Virus record (IMG/VR): IMGVR_UViG_3300013306_000007
Location: 1 to 45,485 of that record
From: a virus
Strand: one strand, 5' to 3'
Length of the DNA stretch: 45,485 bases
Shown here piece by piece: positions 22,564 to 26,966 of this stretch. The notes below the pieces were generated by a model, which had not been told where the DNA came from, did not search any database, and was given only the letters and a program-made list of their open reading frames with translations. Within the stretch, counting starts at the first letter, position 1. Each line of letters begins with the position of its first letter. The translations under genes and the position numbers were made by a program.

Positions 22564-22836
22564 TCAGTCTTCTGGGTAAAGGGTGTAGTCGATGCAAATC
22601 TTGTGCATCACCTTGTTGGCGCGGAACACCGAGAAGTCGCCAGCATCAATTCCAACCTGATGAATGTGCGATTCGCCCTTGTGGATGACTCCGCCAGCAT
22701 CAAGAAAATTACATATCAACTTCCAGTCTTCAGGCTCAAAGTCACGTTCACCAAAACCTGACTGGCTGATCCAGTGATATGCGCCGCACGGATAATTCTT
22801 ACGCGCTACCGGATTCGACTCTCTTAGTAATGTCAT
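22564..22836 (-). CDS. hypothetical protein, 90 aa
   Basis: Start ATG 22836 overlaps the upstream stop (ATGA). The N-terminus (LRESNPVARKNYPCGAYHWI) resembles short proteins in Pseudomonas phages carrying an RxSNPVARKxYPC motif. Function unknown. Confidence 0.65.
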   Translation of the reverse strand: MTLLRESNPVARKNYPCGAYHWISQSGFGERDFEPEDWKLICNFLDAGGVIHKGESHIHQVGIDAGDFSVFRANKVMHKICIDYTLYPED

Positions 22837-23177
22837 AGCCACGCCTCTAACCGTTGCACAGCAAGCGCCAATCGCTCGCCATCCTGTCTACCCAACCTTT
22901 CACCACGCTCAATCATCGACCTAGCAGTCTCCCAAATCAGCCATTCGGCGCGTATTTCTTTGTTCTCTTTGTGCTTTTGCTCGTACTGAGTGACACCGTT
23001 TTCGGTCCAAATGAAGGTTTCCGCATCGATAAACGACCCAAAAACACCGGTTTTCTCCATTTTCATCAGAAAACCATTGCGCAGCTCGTCGATCCGAAAC
23101 TTCCTCAGATGAAGATCGTTGGCGGTAATCGGAACCTTGATCCCGTATTGGGCGCGAATGGCTTCTTCAAAGGTCAT
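22833..23177 (-). CDS. hypothetical protein, 114 aa
   Basis: Follows the DUF3987 gene by ATGA overlap. A helical protein with Trp/Glu/Arg-rich C-terminus (RAEWLIWETARSMIERGERL). Tight coupling suggests action with the DUF3987 protein. No family recognised. Confidence 0.6.
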   Translation of the reverse strand: MTFEEAIRAQYGIKVPITANDLHLRKFRIDELRNGFLMKMEKTGVFGSFIDAETFIWTENGVTQYEQKHKENKEIRAEWLIWETARSMIERGERLGRQDGERLALAVQRLEAWL

Positions 23178-24739
23178 ACGATTTCAATTTTCCCGGTAGT
23201 GTTCACCGAAAGCGAGCCAGCGGTGATCATGGCGTCAATCCTGGCGGTCGCGATCTTGAATCCAGCTGGCATAGCCTTGAACGGTTTGCGATTCTTCGCC
23301 CTGAGTGCCAGCGCTCGGCGTTCCATCGGCTTGCCGGTCAGGATATCGATTATCGTCTCTTCCTCGGCCTGCGAGCCAGACTCGCCAGCGCTGTTCAAGA
23401 TCCCCTTGATGTGCTCGGACAGCATCAAAACCAGCTCGATTGACTCTTCGATAATCCATGTCGGGATGATCTCAGGCACCTTGCAGTTGTTCGAGATGCA
23501 TTCGATGACGTGAATGTTCCCGGCGATTTTCATGACGTGCGTTTCGATCTTGGCCAGCCAGCCCATCATGACCATTTCGCCCGCCATCTTCAGGTCATAC
23601 AGATAGCTTTCTGTCGAGTTCTTTGCCTCGCGCAGAATCCGATAGCCTTCATCGGAAGCCTTGATCCTGATCAGGTTTTCCGGGTCCATGACGACCCGCT
23701 CATCATCGTCGGCGCCATGCTGCTTTAAAGCCATGCCTGAGTAGATGTCGACGCACGCCGCACAAGCCTGCTCAAACGCTTCCTTTTCGCGCTTGGTTGG
23801 GAAGTGCCCTTCATTGCGACGGAAGCCAATCGGGTCAGGCTCAGCCAGGTAGATGAACCGCTCGGCCATCCCGGAGCCGCCAGAGGCCGACAGGACGCGC
23901 TTGCTACTGCCAGGCTGGGCGATGATGACAACGCAGCCCTGAACCATGCCAGTGAACGCCTTGCGGCCTGCTCGCATGCCCGACACGTACTCGCTTGCGT
24001 AGCCCTTAAGGATCAGTTCGTTGGTGCTGGCAAACGAACCGGTTTCCGGGAACAGCGATTGCAACCCGGACTGCTCGGCGCTGGACACGACGAACCGACC
24101 TTCTGAGCAACCAGAAAGGAATCCGTCGATAGATGCGGACGTGCCGTCCGATGTCTCGCTGAACGTGCGTTTCAGATGCTGCTCAGCAGGAATGTCGCGC
24201 TCCTTCATCTCGCGGTTTATGCCGCCAACCTTCTTGTTGTGCGCAGCCACGCCGAGACGATAGGGCTTCATGCCGACATCCAGCAGGTAGCTTTTCATCA
24301 TGGCGGGTGGCTGCTCAATGATCGTGTACATGCCAAGCGCGATGCAGGAGTCAGTCGAATACTGAGTCGCATACGCCATCGACACCGAACAACTTGCGGC
24401 CGACAGCAGCGCAAAGAAAGTGCTGACTTCCGGAAACTCAATCTTTTCGTGAACAACTTTAGTCAATTTGCCGATAGTTGTGCCGAGCAGTCTTTCGCTC
24501 ATCTGGAGTAATACCGGAACAAACTCCGAATCGTCCTGAGCCTGCTTCTTTACCTTCGGCTTGTACTGCTTTCTTTCTGGCTTCAACTCTGGAAGCGGAA
24601 CTTCTGTCGCCGCGACATGATCGATGACGCCGATATCAAAAGCCGATATGGCGAACTCATCGTCGTCAGGCATAACAGTTGTATATAGCTCGACCGGGGC
24701 AACATCAAAGGCAGGCGGATTACTGATATCGATATCCAT
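23174..24739 (-). CDS. DUF3987-family replication protein
   Basis: A 521-residue protein from ATG 24739, which shares TAATG with the upstream stop (the TTG at 24754 is unnecessary). After an acidic N-terminus of about 55 residues, the body matches the DUF3987 family, with FALLSAASCSVSMAYATQY, IEQPPAMMKSYLLDVGM and VVSSAEQSGLQSLF. These proteins are helicase/primase-associated P-loop-like ATPases in phages and integrative elements, but the usual GxGKS is replaced here by PPAMMKS. With the CHC2 primase it probably forms the phage replication initiator set. Confidence 0.75.
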   Translation of the reverse strand: MDIDISNPPAFDVAPVELYTTVMPDDDEFAISAFDIGVIDHVAATEVPLPELKPERKQYKPKVKKQAQDDSEFVPVLLQMSERLLGTTIGKLTKVVHEKIEFPEVSTFFALLSAASCSVSMAYATQYSTDSCIALGMYTIIEQPPAMMKSYLLDVGMKPYRLGVAAHNKKVGGINREMKERDIPAEQHLKRTFSETSDGTSASIDGFLSGCSEGRFVVSSAEQSGLQSLFPETGSFASTNELILKGYASEYVSGMRAGRKAFTGMVQGCVVIIAQPGSSKRVLSASGGSGMAERFIYLAEPDPIGFRRNEGHFPTKREKEAFEQACAACVDIYSGMALKQHGADDDERVVMDPENLIRIKASDEGYRILREAKNSTESYLYDLKMAGEMVMMGWLAKIETHVMKIAGNIHVIECISNNCKVPEIIPTWIIEESIELVLMLSEHIKGILNSAGESGSQAEEETIIDILTGKPMERRALALRAKNRKPFKAMPAGFKIATARIDAMITAGSLSVNTTGKIEIV

Positions 24740-24948
24740 TATTTGATCCGCCAAATACGGTAGCCGTCGCCCTCTTTACGGCGGGTCATCTTGAAGCCGT
24801 TCTTGTGCCACCTGGCGTACGAATAGGCGGCGCTTGCACAGGCTTCAACCTCGCTGAGCAGGTCATAATATTTGCTGCCGCCGACCGGCCAATCTGCAAA
24901 ATTGTAGCGGTTCACCTTCGGAATCGGGACACCTACATCCGTCTGCAT
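24739..24948 (-). CDS. hypothetical protein, 69 aa
   Basis: First gene of the early region. ATG 24948 has AAGGA before it. The product is polar and aromatic (NRYNFADWPVGGSKYY; YSYARWHKNGFKMTRRK), ending in a basic patch, with a layout like small phage DNA-binding proteins. Function unknown. Confidence 0.6.
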   Translation of the reverse strand: MQTDVGVPIPKVNRYNFADWPVGGSKYYDLLSEVEACASAAYSYARWHKNGFKMTRRKEGDGYRIWRIK

Positions 24949-24987
24949 ATTTTGATCCTTTGCGTCTTGGTTATCTTGCTTTTGGCG

Positions 24988-25016
24988 ATTCTGCGTCAAT
25001 CAAAAAATCTAGTCAA
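24988..25016 (-). promoter_or_regulatory. early leftward promoter
   Basis: Minus-strand TTGACT (25016-25011), 17-nt spacer, CAGAAT (24993-24988). It lacks the ATARTNAYTAT operator found at the other early promoters, so this first module may escape that control. Confidence 0.5.
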
Positions 25017-25070
25017 CCTTTGTTCTCATCTTGTTCCTTTCGTTCCCTTCTCCATCTTACTTCTCTAAGG

Positions 25071-25366
25071 TTTGTGCAAATTTGTGCCCGTTGTGCCCGA
25101 GTTGTGCCCGGAAAAGAGCACAGGTCTAGGCCGCGTAGAATAAGGGCTGGAGGCATTCTGTGCTCTTGTGCTCCTTTTTTTAAAAAAACACCCTTTTTAC
25201 GAGTTATTGATTATCAGTATCAATTAACATGGTCGCGTGCAAATTTCCGAATGTGCGAATGACGGGCACACGGGCACAAATTCATCAAAATGCTCTGGAG
25301 GCCACGTATTTAAAGGGCTGGAGCTGTGCTCTTTTGACGGGCACAAAAAGAGCACACGGGCACAAA
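25071..25366. repeat. iteron-like repeat cluster with AT-rich element (candidate origin)
   Basis: At least eleven copies of TGTGCCC or TGTGCTC occur in both orientations. TTGTGCCCG at 25082, 25091 and 25102; TGTGCTC at 25159, 25167 and 25325; the reverse forms CGGGCACA at 25263, 25271, 25338 and 25357; GAGCACA at 25116 and 25350. A longer unit GGGCTGGAG...CTGTGCTCTT is repeated near 25144 and 25314. An AT-rich stretch with T and A runs lies at 25173-25215. Iterons beside an AT-rich element, between divergent early and late regions, suggest a replication origin. Open frames here are repeat artefacts. Confidence 0.6.
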
Positions 25367-25437
25367 TCGATTTCCTTACCAGAAAGTCAGGATTTCAAAT
25401 CAGCACGAAAATTTCCTTCGATTGTCGCGATAATCGA

Positions 25438-25466
25438 TTGACATAGTTTTGCGGCTGGGAGATGAT
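25438..25466 (+). promoter_or_regulatory. promoter-operator site H, upstream of the structured RNA
   Basis: TTGACATAGTTTTGCG (25438-25453), 17-nt spacer, GATGAT (25461-25466). The first 12 bases of the motif are kept; the 3' part has diverged. It points rightward into the non-coding structured region; a start near 25473 is expected. Confidence 0.6.
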
Positions 25467-25636
25467 TCGTTTCGTGGTGATGGCAAGCGATGCTCTGCTG
25501 GCTCCTTTGATGAGAGCCGTCACAACCAGGAATGCAAAAGTCATCGACCGGAGCGCTTGGAATGAATACGCAGGTGGAACTCCTGGCCGGATACGTAACC
25601 GGCAGCGCTCTTTAAATCTGAAGTTGTTATTCGCAT

Positions 25637-25714
25637 GGTCATTTTAGATTAATGGTAAATCACCTGCTGCAGTAGACCAGGGGAGAAACCGGGTTCGATT
25701 CCAGGGAGTGATCA
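25637..25714 (+). other. tRNA-like domain 1 in the structured RNA
   Basis: GGTCATTT (25637) pairs with GAGTGATC (25706) with several G-U pairs. A D-arm-like GATT/AATC hairpin with GG in its loop follows. A CCTG/CAGG arm has an over-long 11-nt loop. A T-arm CCGGG-TTCGATT-CCAGG has one internal G-A mismatch. It is close to a cloverleaf but has no standard 7-nt anticodon loop and no encoded CCA, so a working tRNA is unlikely. Confidence 0.5.
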
Positions 25715-26036
25715 GCCGAATAACAATTACACTGAACATGGCGAAAGCCATAAACGAAATTGCCGCTTCACGACACTACGGCAATCTAAATAATCATGGA
25801 CGTCGTCACGATCAGGGGAGCTGGTCACTTATTTAAGAATCAACCAGCGCCACCGCAATACCGTTACGGCTCGGAATGCACTTAGGTTAGTGATGCTCCC
25901 TTCTCAGCATCAGATCATCAGAGTCTAAAGTTTGTAGCTGATGTGAAAAACGCCTAGAGTGCTTGAGTAAACCGTAAGAGGGTTTTATCGTTTCCCTCGG
26001 AAGTGGGCCCGTCAGATGCGGAAATCGTCTTTATCA

Positions 26037-26145
26037 GGTAGTCACTATTTTCGAGCGAGCAGAAAAGTCATACGGAGTCGGAGAGAAACCGTCGTAGGAT
26101 GCAAACTAGCTGAACAACTCGTCAAAACTGAAAATAGTGACTACC
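26037..26145 (+). other. 16-bp long-range stem of the structured RNA
   Basis: GGTAGTCACTATTTTC (26037-26052) is the exact reverse complement of 26130-26145. The 77-nt interior carries a smaller hairpin (TACG/CGTA and CGG/CCG, 26071-26096). The 3' arm directly abuts tRNA-like domain 2, so the helices could stack. A perfect 16-bp pairing at this distance is not expected by chance. Confidence 0.8.
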
Positions 26146-26216
26146 GATGCAGATGATTGTGGAAAGCGCAGGCTTAACAGCCGTCTAGCAGGGTTCGACG
26201 CCGTGCCGTCTGCATC
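26146..26216 (+). other. tRNA-like domain 2 in the structured RNA
   Basis: An 8-bp closing helix GATGCAGA/TCTGCATC holds a GGCT-TAAC-AGCC hairpin (26171) and a T-arm-like GCAGGG-TTCGACG-CCGTGC (26188-26206) with a 7-nt loop and one G-G mismatch. The unpaired CG spacer before the closing helix and the 4-nt middle loop rule out an ordinary tRNA. Confidence 0.55.
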
Positions 26217-26300
26217 GCCTGTATGGATTGGGAGTTTCCCGGTCGAGCGTTCGGTGCTATGAACCGACGGCGCGGGATGCGTCGATAACTCTGTCCCATG

Positions 26301-26328
26301 GCCCGCACTTAAAACCTGCGGGCTTTTT
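26301..26328 (+). terminator. intrinsic terminator of the structured RNA
   Basis: GCCCGCA/TGCGGGC perfect 7-bp stem, 9-nt loop, then TTTTT. No protein gene precedes it for more than 1 kb on this strand, so it must end a non-coding transcript. Confidence 0.92.
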
Positions 26329-26341
26329 CATTTCTGCTGGC

Positions 26342-26357: not shown

Positions 26358-26435
26358 GCGGATAGGACGGCCATCCGAAAGCCAGAACGCTACTGGTTTC
26401 CGCAATCCTCTTAGCGACACTTGAGCGAAGTGATC

Positions 26436-26966
26436 ATGCCAGCATCAACCAAGAGTTACATCTACGCCCTGTCTTGCCCTGATAGCGGCGACGTCAGATA
26501 CATTGGTAAAGCTAATAATCCTCAAGCCAGGCTCAAGAGCCATATCAGGGATTCTTCAAGGCGCGATTACCCCGTCTACAGGTGGATTAGGAAACTCATA
26601 GCTGCCGGGAAGACCCTCGAAATATCTGTTATCTCTGAGCATGATGGTGATTCTTGGAAGGCGGCCGAAATCGAGACGATTAGTCGCTACCGGGAATCAG
26701 GGGCGAGATTGCTCAATGTAGCAATTGGCGGCGACCAGCCCGAATGCAGCAAAGAGCAGCGGGCTATCAATGGTAGAGCTACGGCAAAGGCAATCCATGG
26801 CAATACTGATCTGCATAGAATCTGGCGAGTAAAGAAAGGCGCGGCTGACGCGCTGAGATGGCTTGAGAAAAACTCAACCCCGGAGAGAGTCGAAAAATTC
26901 AAGGAGGTAATGCGTTATGCTGCAAAGAAGAGACCCGATATTTTTGGTAAATGGGCATTGATATGA
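26436..26966 (+). CDS. GIY-YIG homing endonuclease
   Basis: A 176-residue protein from ATG 26436 (TTG 26421 is also open). The GIY-YIG core is recognisable: SYIYALSCPDSGDVRYIGKA (about 5-24), then the PQARLKSHI arginine motif and ISEHDGDSWKAAEIETIS with the catalytic Glu. The C-terminus (KEQRAINGRATAKAI and a helical tail) is a NUMOD-like DNA-binding part. It lies between the structured RNA and terminase; its stop overlaps the small-terminase start (ATGA). Probably a mobile free-standing endonuclease. Confidence 0.85.
   Translation: MPASTKSYIYALSCPDSGDVRYIGKANNPQARLKSHIRDSSRRDYPVYRWIRKLIAAGKTLEISVISEHDGDSWKAAEIETISRYRESGARLLNVAIGGDQPECSKEQRAINGRATAKAIHGNTDLHRIWRVKKGAADALRWLEKNSTPERVEKFKEVMRYAAKKRPDIFGKWALI

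Follow-up and report, generated by a model that had tools for sequence, protein, structure and literature searches.

A 45,485-base IMG/VR phage record, the whole of which is called the window here, very probably encodes a real, non-coding and modular structured RNA that lies outside Rfam. Comparison with relatives shows that this unit, about 850–855 nt long, consists of modules, each predicted to fold independently, that are exchanged between phages at a site with a DUF3987 module on one side and the terminase operon on the other. Several modules appear tRNA-like. Some are degenerate tRNAs with the T-arm intact; others are junctions where a hairpin resembling a T-arm lies at the closing stem and its loop could pair with a D-arm-like loop. 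The complete statement that this is a new class of large modular phage RNA acting by tRNA mimicry, mechanism included, we place a little short of an even chance. The virus is a bacteriophage, probably with a host of the genus Pseudomonas.

Boundaries and Organization of the RNA Unit

The elements of the unit, with their positions in the window, are given below.

25438–25466, plus strand: sigma70-type promoter TTGACA-17-GATGAT, with 10/12 matches; a similar motif precedes the RNA in relatives.
25473–26330, plus strand: the entire structured non-coding RNA, from sequence, folding and relatives.
25474–25527, plus strand: 5′ junction domain, read from the sequence; the slot for the kissing-loop module TLS1 in sister phages.
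25551–25610, plus strand: TLS2, with a 7-bp closing stem GAGCGCT/AGCGCTC, a hairpin CAGG(TGGAACT)CCTG and a T-arm-like hairpin GCCGG(ATACGTAA)CCGGC.
25607–25631, plus strand: nearly invariant block GCTCTTTAAATCTGAAGTTGTTATT with the boxA-like core GCTCTTTAA, from a pattern search of relatives and comparison with boxA.
25619–25731, plus strand: P2 helix (25619–25641 with 25709–25731) around a tRNA-like element; its inner part covaries across 15 loci.
25637–25714, plus strand: degenerate tRNA (Thr, AGT) inside P2, from ARAGORN (tRNA-Thr) and a sub-threshold Rfam tRNA match.
25738–25811, plus strand: module M72, with a GAAA-tetraloop hairpin (25738–25751) and a hairpin ATTGCCG/CGGCAAT (25759–25785).
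25864–26024, plus strand: core A, with stem GCACTTAGG/CCTAGAGTGC around hairpins 25891–25912 and 25916–25943, then GAGGG/CCCTC; seven sequences.
26023–26035, plus strand: conserved linker AATCGTCTTTATC preceding the long stem, from comparison with relatives.
26037–26145, plus strand: long hairpin with a perfect 16-bp stem (26037–26052 with 26130–26145), in a slot common to 19 other loci whose stem sequences differ.
26146–26217, plus strand: 3′ junction domain, with a 10-bp stem GATGCAGATG/CGTCTGCATC and a T-arm-like hairpin, in the TLS1 slot of relatives.
26218–26300, plus strand: last stem-loop domain, predicted by folding alone, without comparison to relatives.
26301–26328, plus strand: intrinsic terminator GCCCGCA(9)TGCGGGC-TTTTT, identified by direct reading of the letters (the 9-nt loop exceeds the scanner's limit); similar in relatives.

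The preliminary description of this DNA had proposed a giant, ornate non-coding RNA with its own sigma70-like promoter and a strong terminator, no protein gene, a GAAA tetraloop hairpin and a 16-bp long-range stem. All of these were borne out at the positions listed, and the unit as a whole is supported by its promoter, terminator, folding and conserved helices. The promoter was the sole good candidate in the stretch in a promoter scan, and a promoter-like motif also stands before the RNA in G005, L114, L115, L116, L117 and L118; the 5′ start of the RNA is inferred to lie near 25473. The terminator is almost unchanged in the relative L003. The longest plus-strand ORF within the RNA has 57 codons, below the shuffle mean of 67, and the predicted folding energy of −298 kcal/mol compares with −270 ± 9 in shuffles (z = −3.2), none of the 20 shuffles being as low.

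To the left of the RNA, a DUF3987 protein gene and a small gene lie on the minus strand; to the right are a GIY-YIG ORF, small terminase, large terminase and portal. The GIY-YIG nuclease-like ORF (26421–26966, between the RNA and small terminase) is possibly a homing insertion and was matched in none of the relatives examined. Upstream of the promoter, GAGCACA/TGTGCTC and GTGCCCG motifs are repeated at 25080–25360, a region that is perhaps a replication origin. GAGCACA repeats are also present in Amjad_SA, the nearest named phage by large terminase, which was searched and is without the RNA unit.

Relatives and Module Exchange

An nhmmer search of contigs located by their large terminase yielded diverged relatives that share islands of identity with the window. 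The 25-nt pattern GCTCTTTAAANCTGNANTTGTTATT found 15 IMG/VR stretches, and 15 other phage contigs carry the unit. Where the flanks of these units were readable, a DUF3987-module gene mostly came before and terminase or portal genes after. The rRNA-boxA-like block and its helix are common to the units, and the remainder is a mosaic of tRNAs, degenerate tRNA-like elements, pseudoknotted cores, long hairpins and small ORFs. Exchange is sharpest in the sister phage G005, which is 93% identical to the window over 22831–25498; the identity breaks off about 25 nt inside the RNA. Beyond 25498, G005 aligns with the window only over 29 nt (the boxA block) and 53 nt (the terminator); its RNA carries a TLS1 at the 5′ end (L120, 80.6 bits) and a type B core.

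Module M72 is 94% identical in Pseudomonas phage Aurca01 and also occurs in L097 and L099; the core of its GAAA-tetraloop hairpin, GGCGAAAGCC, is kept in all three. A 32-codon ORF over M72 was considered as a protein and rejected, the start codon and upstream frame being absent in these three relatives; M72 is therefore not a peptide.

Some relatives additionally contain tRNAs or a tmRNA that lies upstream of terminase, and others have small ORFs accompanied by ribosome-binding-site-like stretches. The tmRNA gene is found at L006 3184–3517, upstream of the large terminase. In the units of L003 (4153–4290), L083 and L117, the interval between P2 and the core contains small ORFs of ~45 codons whose protein sequences are alike, together with a ribosome-binding-site-like stretch. 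The L116 and G005 units contain tRNA-like elements with a long variable arm and the common loop TCTAGAT, the L116 one being uncalled by ARAGORN.

Compensatory Changes in the Helices

The preliminary description had called for covariation analysis on homologues, and compensatory change was found in core B, TLS1 and the stem slots; comparison with relatives also supports the major helices of the window RNA. For the tRNA-like slot, which in the window holds the degenerate tRNA-Thr, the arms lying between the block and its partner strand AATAACAATT gave a mean helix score of 10.7 with each locus's own partner, compared with 4.5 across loci and 3.7 after shuffling (15 loci). The long-stem slot scored 10.9 with own partners versus 3.3 with the partners of other loci (20 loci). 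In the 19 other loci the long hairpin slot lies between AATCGTCTTTAT and the next junction stem; L265 pairs poorly.

Two types of core, both unlike tRNA, occur in the units. Core A was found in the window and six relatives, most of which share its fold, a long stem around two hairpins, despite changed sequences; L260 has a different fold by minimum free energy. Core B is the alternative in most relatives. Among its 15 sequences 90% of cells are paired, compared with 26–43% in slid controls, 15 pairs are changed on both sides, and it contains a pseudoknot. Model R2, built on core B, gave no match to core A of the window and found nothing in 119 Pseudomonas species genomes; on these results core B is not ascribed to the window.

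In 14 units, the RNA strand contains 23 copies of the T-loop signature GGTTCRANWCC and the opposite strand none, a density of 1.65 per kb versus 0.038 in the background, whereas ARAGORN calls no more than nine tRNAs there. This enrichment speaks for the tRNA-like modules of the favored reading; together with the genuine tRNAs in several relatives, it is also what would be expected of an ordinary phage tRNA cluster, in which intact and decayed tRNA genes are separated by structured spacers without further function. We consider that explanation very unlikely, since the compensatory changes in pseudoknotted cores, TLS1 and stem slots point to selection on structures that are not tRNA.

TLS1 and TLS2 Junction Modules

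TLS1 is laid out as GCAGATGAATGCGCAGGCTGATGCGC, a variable stretch, and GCCGGAGATCAGCACCGGCCATCTGC. Hairpin b abuts the closing stem, as the T-arm abuts the acceptor stem, and about 6 nt of the hairpin a loop can pair with the hairpin b loop; the closing stem can be extended to 9–10 bp, compared with the 7-bp acceptor stem of tRNA. In an alignment of 29 sequences, some of whose rows were chosen with patterns that fix certain stem letters (GCAGATG), 96.6% of cells are paired versus 25–44% when slid; because of this choice, the phage rows found by BLAST, which have other closing stems, weigh more. Nine pairs show double-sided change; two of these belong to the loop-loop contact, where GCTGAT/ATCAGC becomes GTCGAT/ATCGAC in four aligned sequences. 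A loose TLS descriptor scan was dropped as evidence (2,014 matches versus 1,396 in shuffles), and TLS1 was scored instead by anchored sequences and the covariance model R1.

TLS1 is widely distributed. Phage P1 has two copies in its tRNA cluster, beside tRNA-Asn and tRNA-Thr, and in KP591P1, ZC03, phiEt88 and SCNJ1-C, as in P1, TLS1 is located inside or next to annotated tRNA genes. Of 119 Pseudomonas species genomes, 29 contain it, and BLAST with the P1-type sequence found it in 934 of 5,426 complete E. coli genomes, or about one in six; in 813 of these the match covers at least 80% of that sequence. The E. coli sites, among the matches listed, are without annotation, and Rfam 15 has no family at TLS1 sites. 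A preprint on Pas sRNA was considered as an earlier description of TLS1 and set aside; the portion of that preprint available to us describes no TLS1.

Model R1 scores 69–81 bits at the 5′ slot in L120/G005, L088, L115, L116 and L118, and leaves the window unmatched there; across the window RNA (25473–26330) it gave no match, compared with 80.6 bits in the sister L120. Judged by sequence and slot, the 5′ and 3′ junction domains of the window are diverged versions in the TLS1 slots, and the stem strand GATGCAGATG is common to the 3′ junction and TLS1-bearing loci. Because R1 does not match, the tRNA likeness of the window comes down to three elements: a sub-threshold tRNA, the TLS2 module and a hairpin resembling a T-arm. 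Of the two tRNA-like domains in the preliminary description, one is clear: the element at 25637–25714 is called tRNA-Thr by ARAGORN and scores 27.7 bits with Rfam tRNA (RF00005), whose curated cut-off is 29. The second is weaker, a T-arm-like hairpin within 26146–26217.

TLS2 is a second junction type; relatives occur in L003, L191 and L288, and P1 has one immediately upstream of tRNA-Asn. Around a TGGAA loop, its hairpin stem reads CAGG/CCTG in the window, GACG/CGTC in L003, GCCG/CGGC in L191 and L288, and GAGG/CCTC in P1, and these changes are compensatory. The P1 stretch downstream of tRNA-Thr has a folding z of −8.6 over 917 nt, with 0 of 20 shuffles as low. The P1 tRNA region (L253 2190–3330, about 65,330–66,470 of OP279344) contains TLS2, two TLS1, a weak STnc100-like match and long hairpins. 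P1, which carries two TLS1 and one TLS2, offers a standard laboratory phage in which to test the function of such RNAs.

The boxA-Like Block

The block core GCTCTTTAA matches, letter for letter, the first nine positions of boxA in the E. coli rrnB leader, GCTCTTTAACAAT. The next letters differ, being ATCTG here and CAATT in the rRNA leader, and the part that follows here is a helix strand. The block may act in antitermination or elongation. A boxA-helix pattern gave no match in the genome contigs searched. The sequence GCTCTTTAAAACTG is also present in Pseudomonas phage PS-1 (L256 270), upstream of the PS-1 TLS1, and a Proteo-phage-1 RNA lies nearby in that phage.

The block and the position of the unit directly before terminase would fit a late-operon leader, in which transcription starts at the 25438–25466 promoter, the structured RNA with its boxA governs read-through of the terminator (26301) into the terminase genes, and the tRNA-like parts are passengers. 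In PAJU2, YA3 and two E. coli prophages, TLS1 is flanked by an antitermination (Q-like) gene and holin, consistent with such a role. However, the modules in P1, ZC03 and Aurca01 do not precede late structural genes, the unit ends in a strong terminator, and read-through needs no huge module diversity; we regard a leader as improbable.

Relation to Known RNA Families

At the gathering score no Rfam 15 family matches the window, and a search with every Rfam 15 family at E ≤ 10 gave only the sub-threshold tRNA. Rfam scans of the window and its relatives found no known family but tRNA, with isolated matches elsewhere. An abiF RNA family match (RF03085, 40.7 bits, cut-off 37) lies at L026 4681–4717, inside a relative's RNA unit. 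The preliminary description had suggested GOLLD or ROOL, or else a new class. The first suggestion was not upheld, since neither the GOLLD (RF02032) nor the ROOL (RF03087) covariance model matched any of 10 records, the window record and nine relatives, at E ≤ 10; the ROOL model gave nothing in the control genomes either, which leaves that one search without a positive control, but the all-Rfam scan also showed no ROOL match. The alternative, a new RNA class, is supported. A literature search, which covered little of the subscription journals and bioRxiv, found no description of the RNA.

GOLLD forms an RNA cage of 14 subunits, and ROOL one of 8 subunits. GOLLD, an RNA of phages and prophages, often exceeds 800 nt; it lies near tRNA islands, sometimes has a tRNA inside and makes loop-loop contacts, and ROOL is a large phage RNA near tRNA islands with several pseudoknots (PMC12286853). 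An RNA-only particle of this kind, a self-assembling cage whose variable linkers possibly hold tRNAs, would account for the size class, the phage context, the tRNA inside or beside the unit, the loop-loop contacts and the variable segments, all as in GOLLD and ROOL (PMC12286853). Against it are the lack of a sequence-structure match to either family, the occurrence of TLS1 alone in many phages, and the wholesale gain, loss and replacement of modules between sisters, which is hard to fit with fixed subunit contacts; a cage thus seems rather unlikely.

Proposed Function and Comparison with Known Systems

We favor tRNA mimicry because of the tRNA-like layout, the tRNA-cluster neighbors and the swapping between sisters. 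In this model the unit would be transcribed from its own promoter and the RNA, from its sequence and covariation, would fold into modules, while the boxA-like block would let RNA polymerase traverse the untranslated stretch. The chain of modules may be cut into tRNA-like pieces, as phage tRNA clusters are, or may act as one particle. The pieces would mimic tRNA; their likeliest targets are host factors that bind tRNA or cut it, tRNA-cleaving defence nucleases among them, which they would occupy or saturate. Fast module exchange between near-identical phages would then reflect an arms race. A decoy role against such host factors, to which shape, neighbors and swapping point, is offered tentatively. 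We are equally cautious about the broader proposal that these are a widespread, unrecognized phage RNA of interchangeable tRNA-shaped modules with D-loop/T-loop kissing contacts, present in P1 and many Pseudomonas and enterobacterial phages and prophages as changeable anti-defence tRNA mimics.

The unit would add to GOLLD and ROOL a further large, ornate class of phage RNA, one that varies by module exchange and not by point change. A covarying module outside Rfam 15 is already evident in P1 and in the E. coli genomes counted above.

The window RNA resembles GOLLD in being phage-encoded, about 855 nt long and with a tRNA-like element inside, and differs from it in giving no model match and in module order and content that vary between sister phages. 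Whereas GOLLD has a conserved 3′ and a variable 5′ region, both halves vary here, and the boxA/P2 block and terminator region are constant. With ROOL it shares the size class of large phage RNAs, the phage context and, in core B of relatives, pseudoknots, but not a model match at E ≤ 10. The phage tRNA clusters of P1 and ZC03 carry TLS1 within or beside their tRNA genes, and the window unit likewise has a tRNA-like element; unlike those clusters, it has a single sub-threshold tRNA and consists predominantly of structured domains that are not tRNA.
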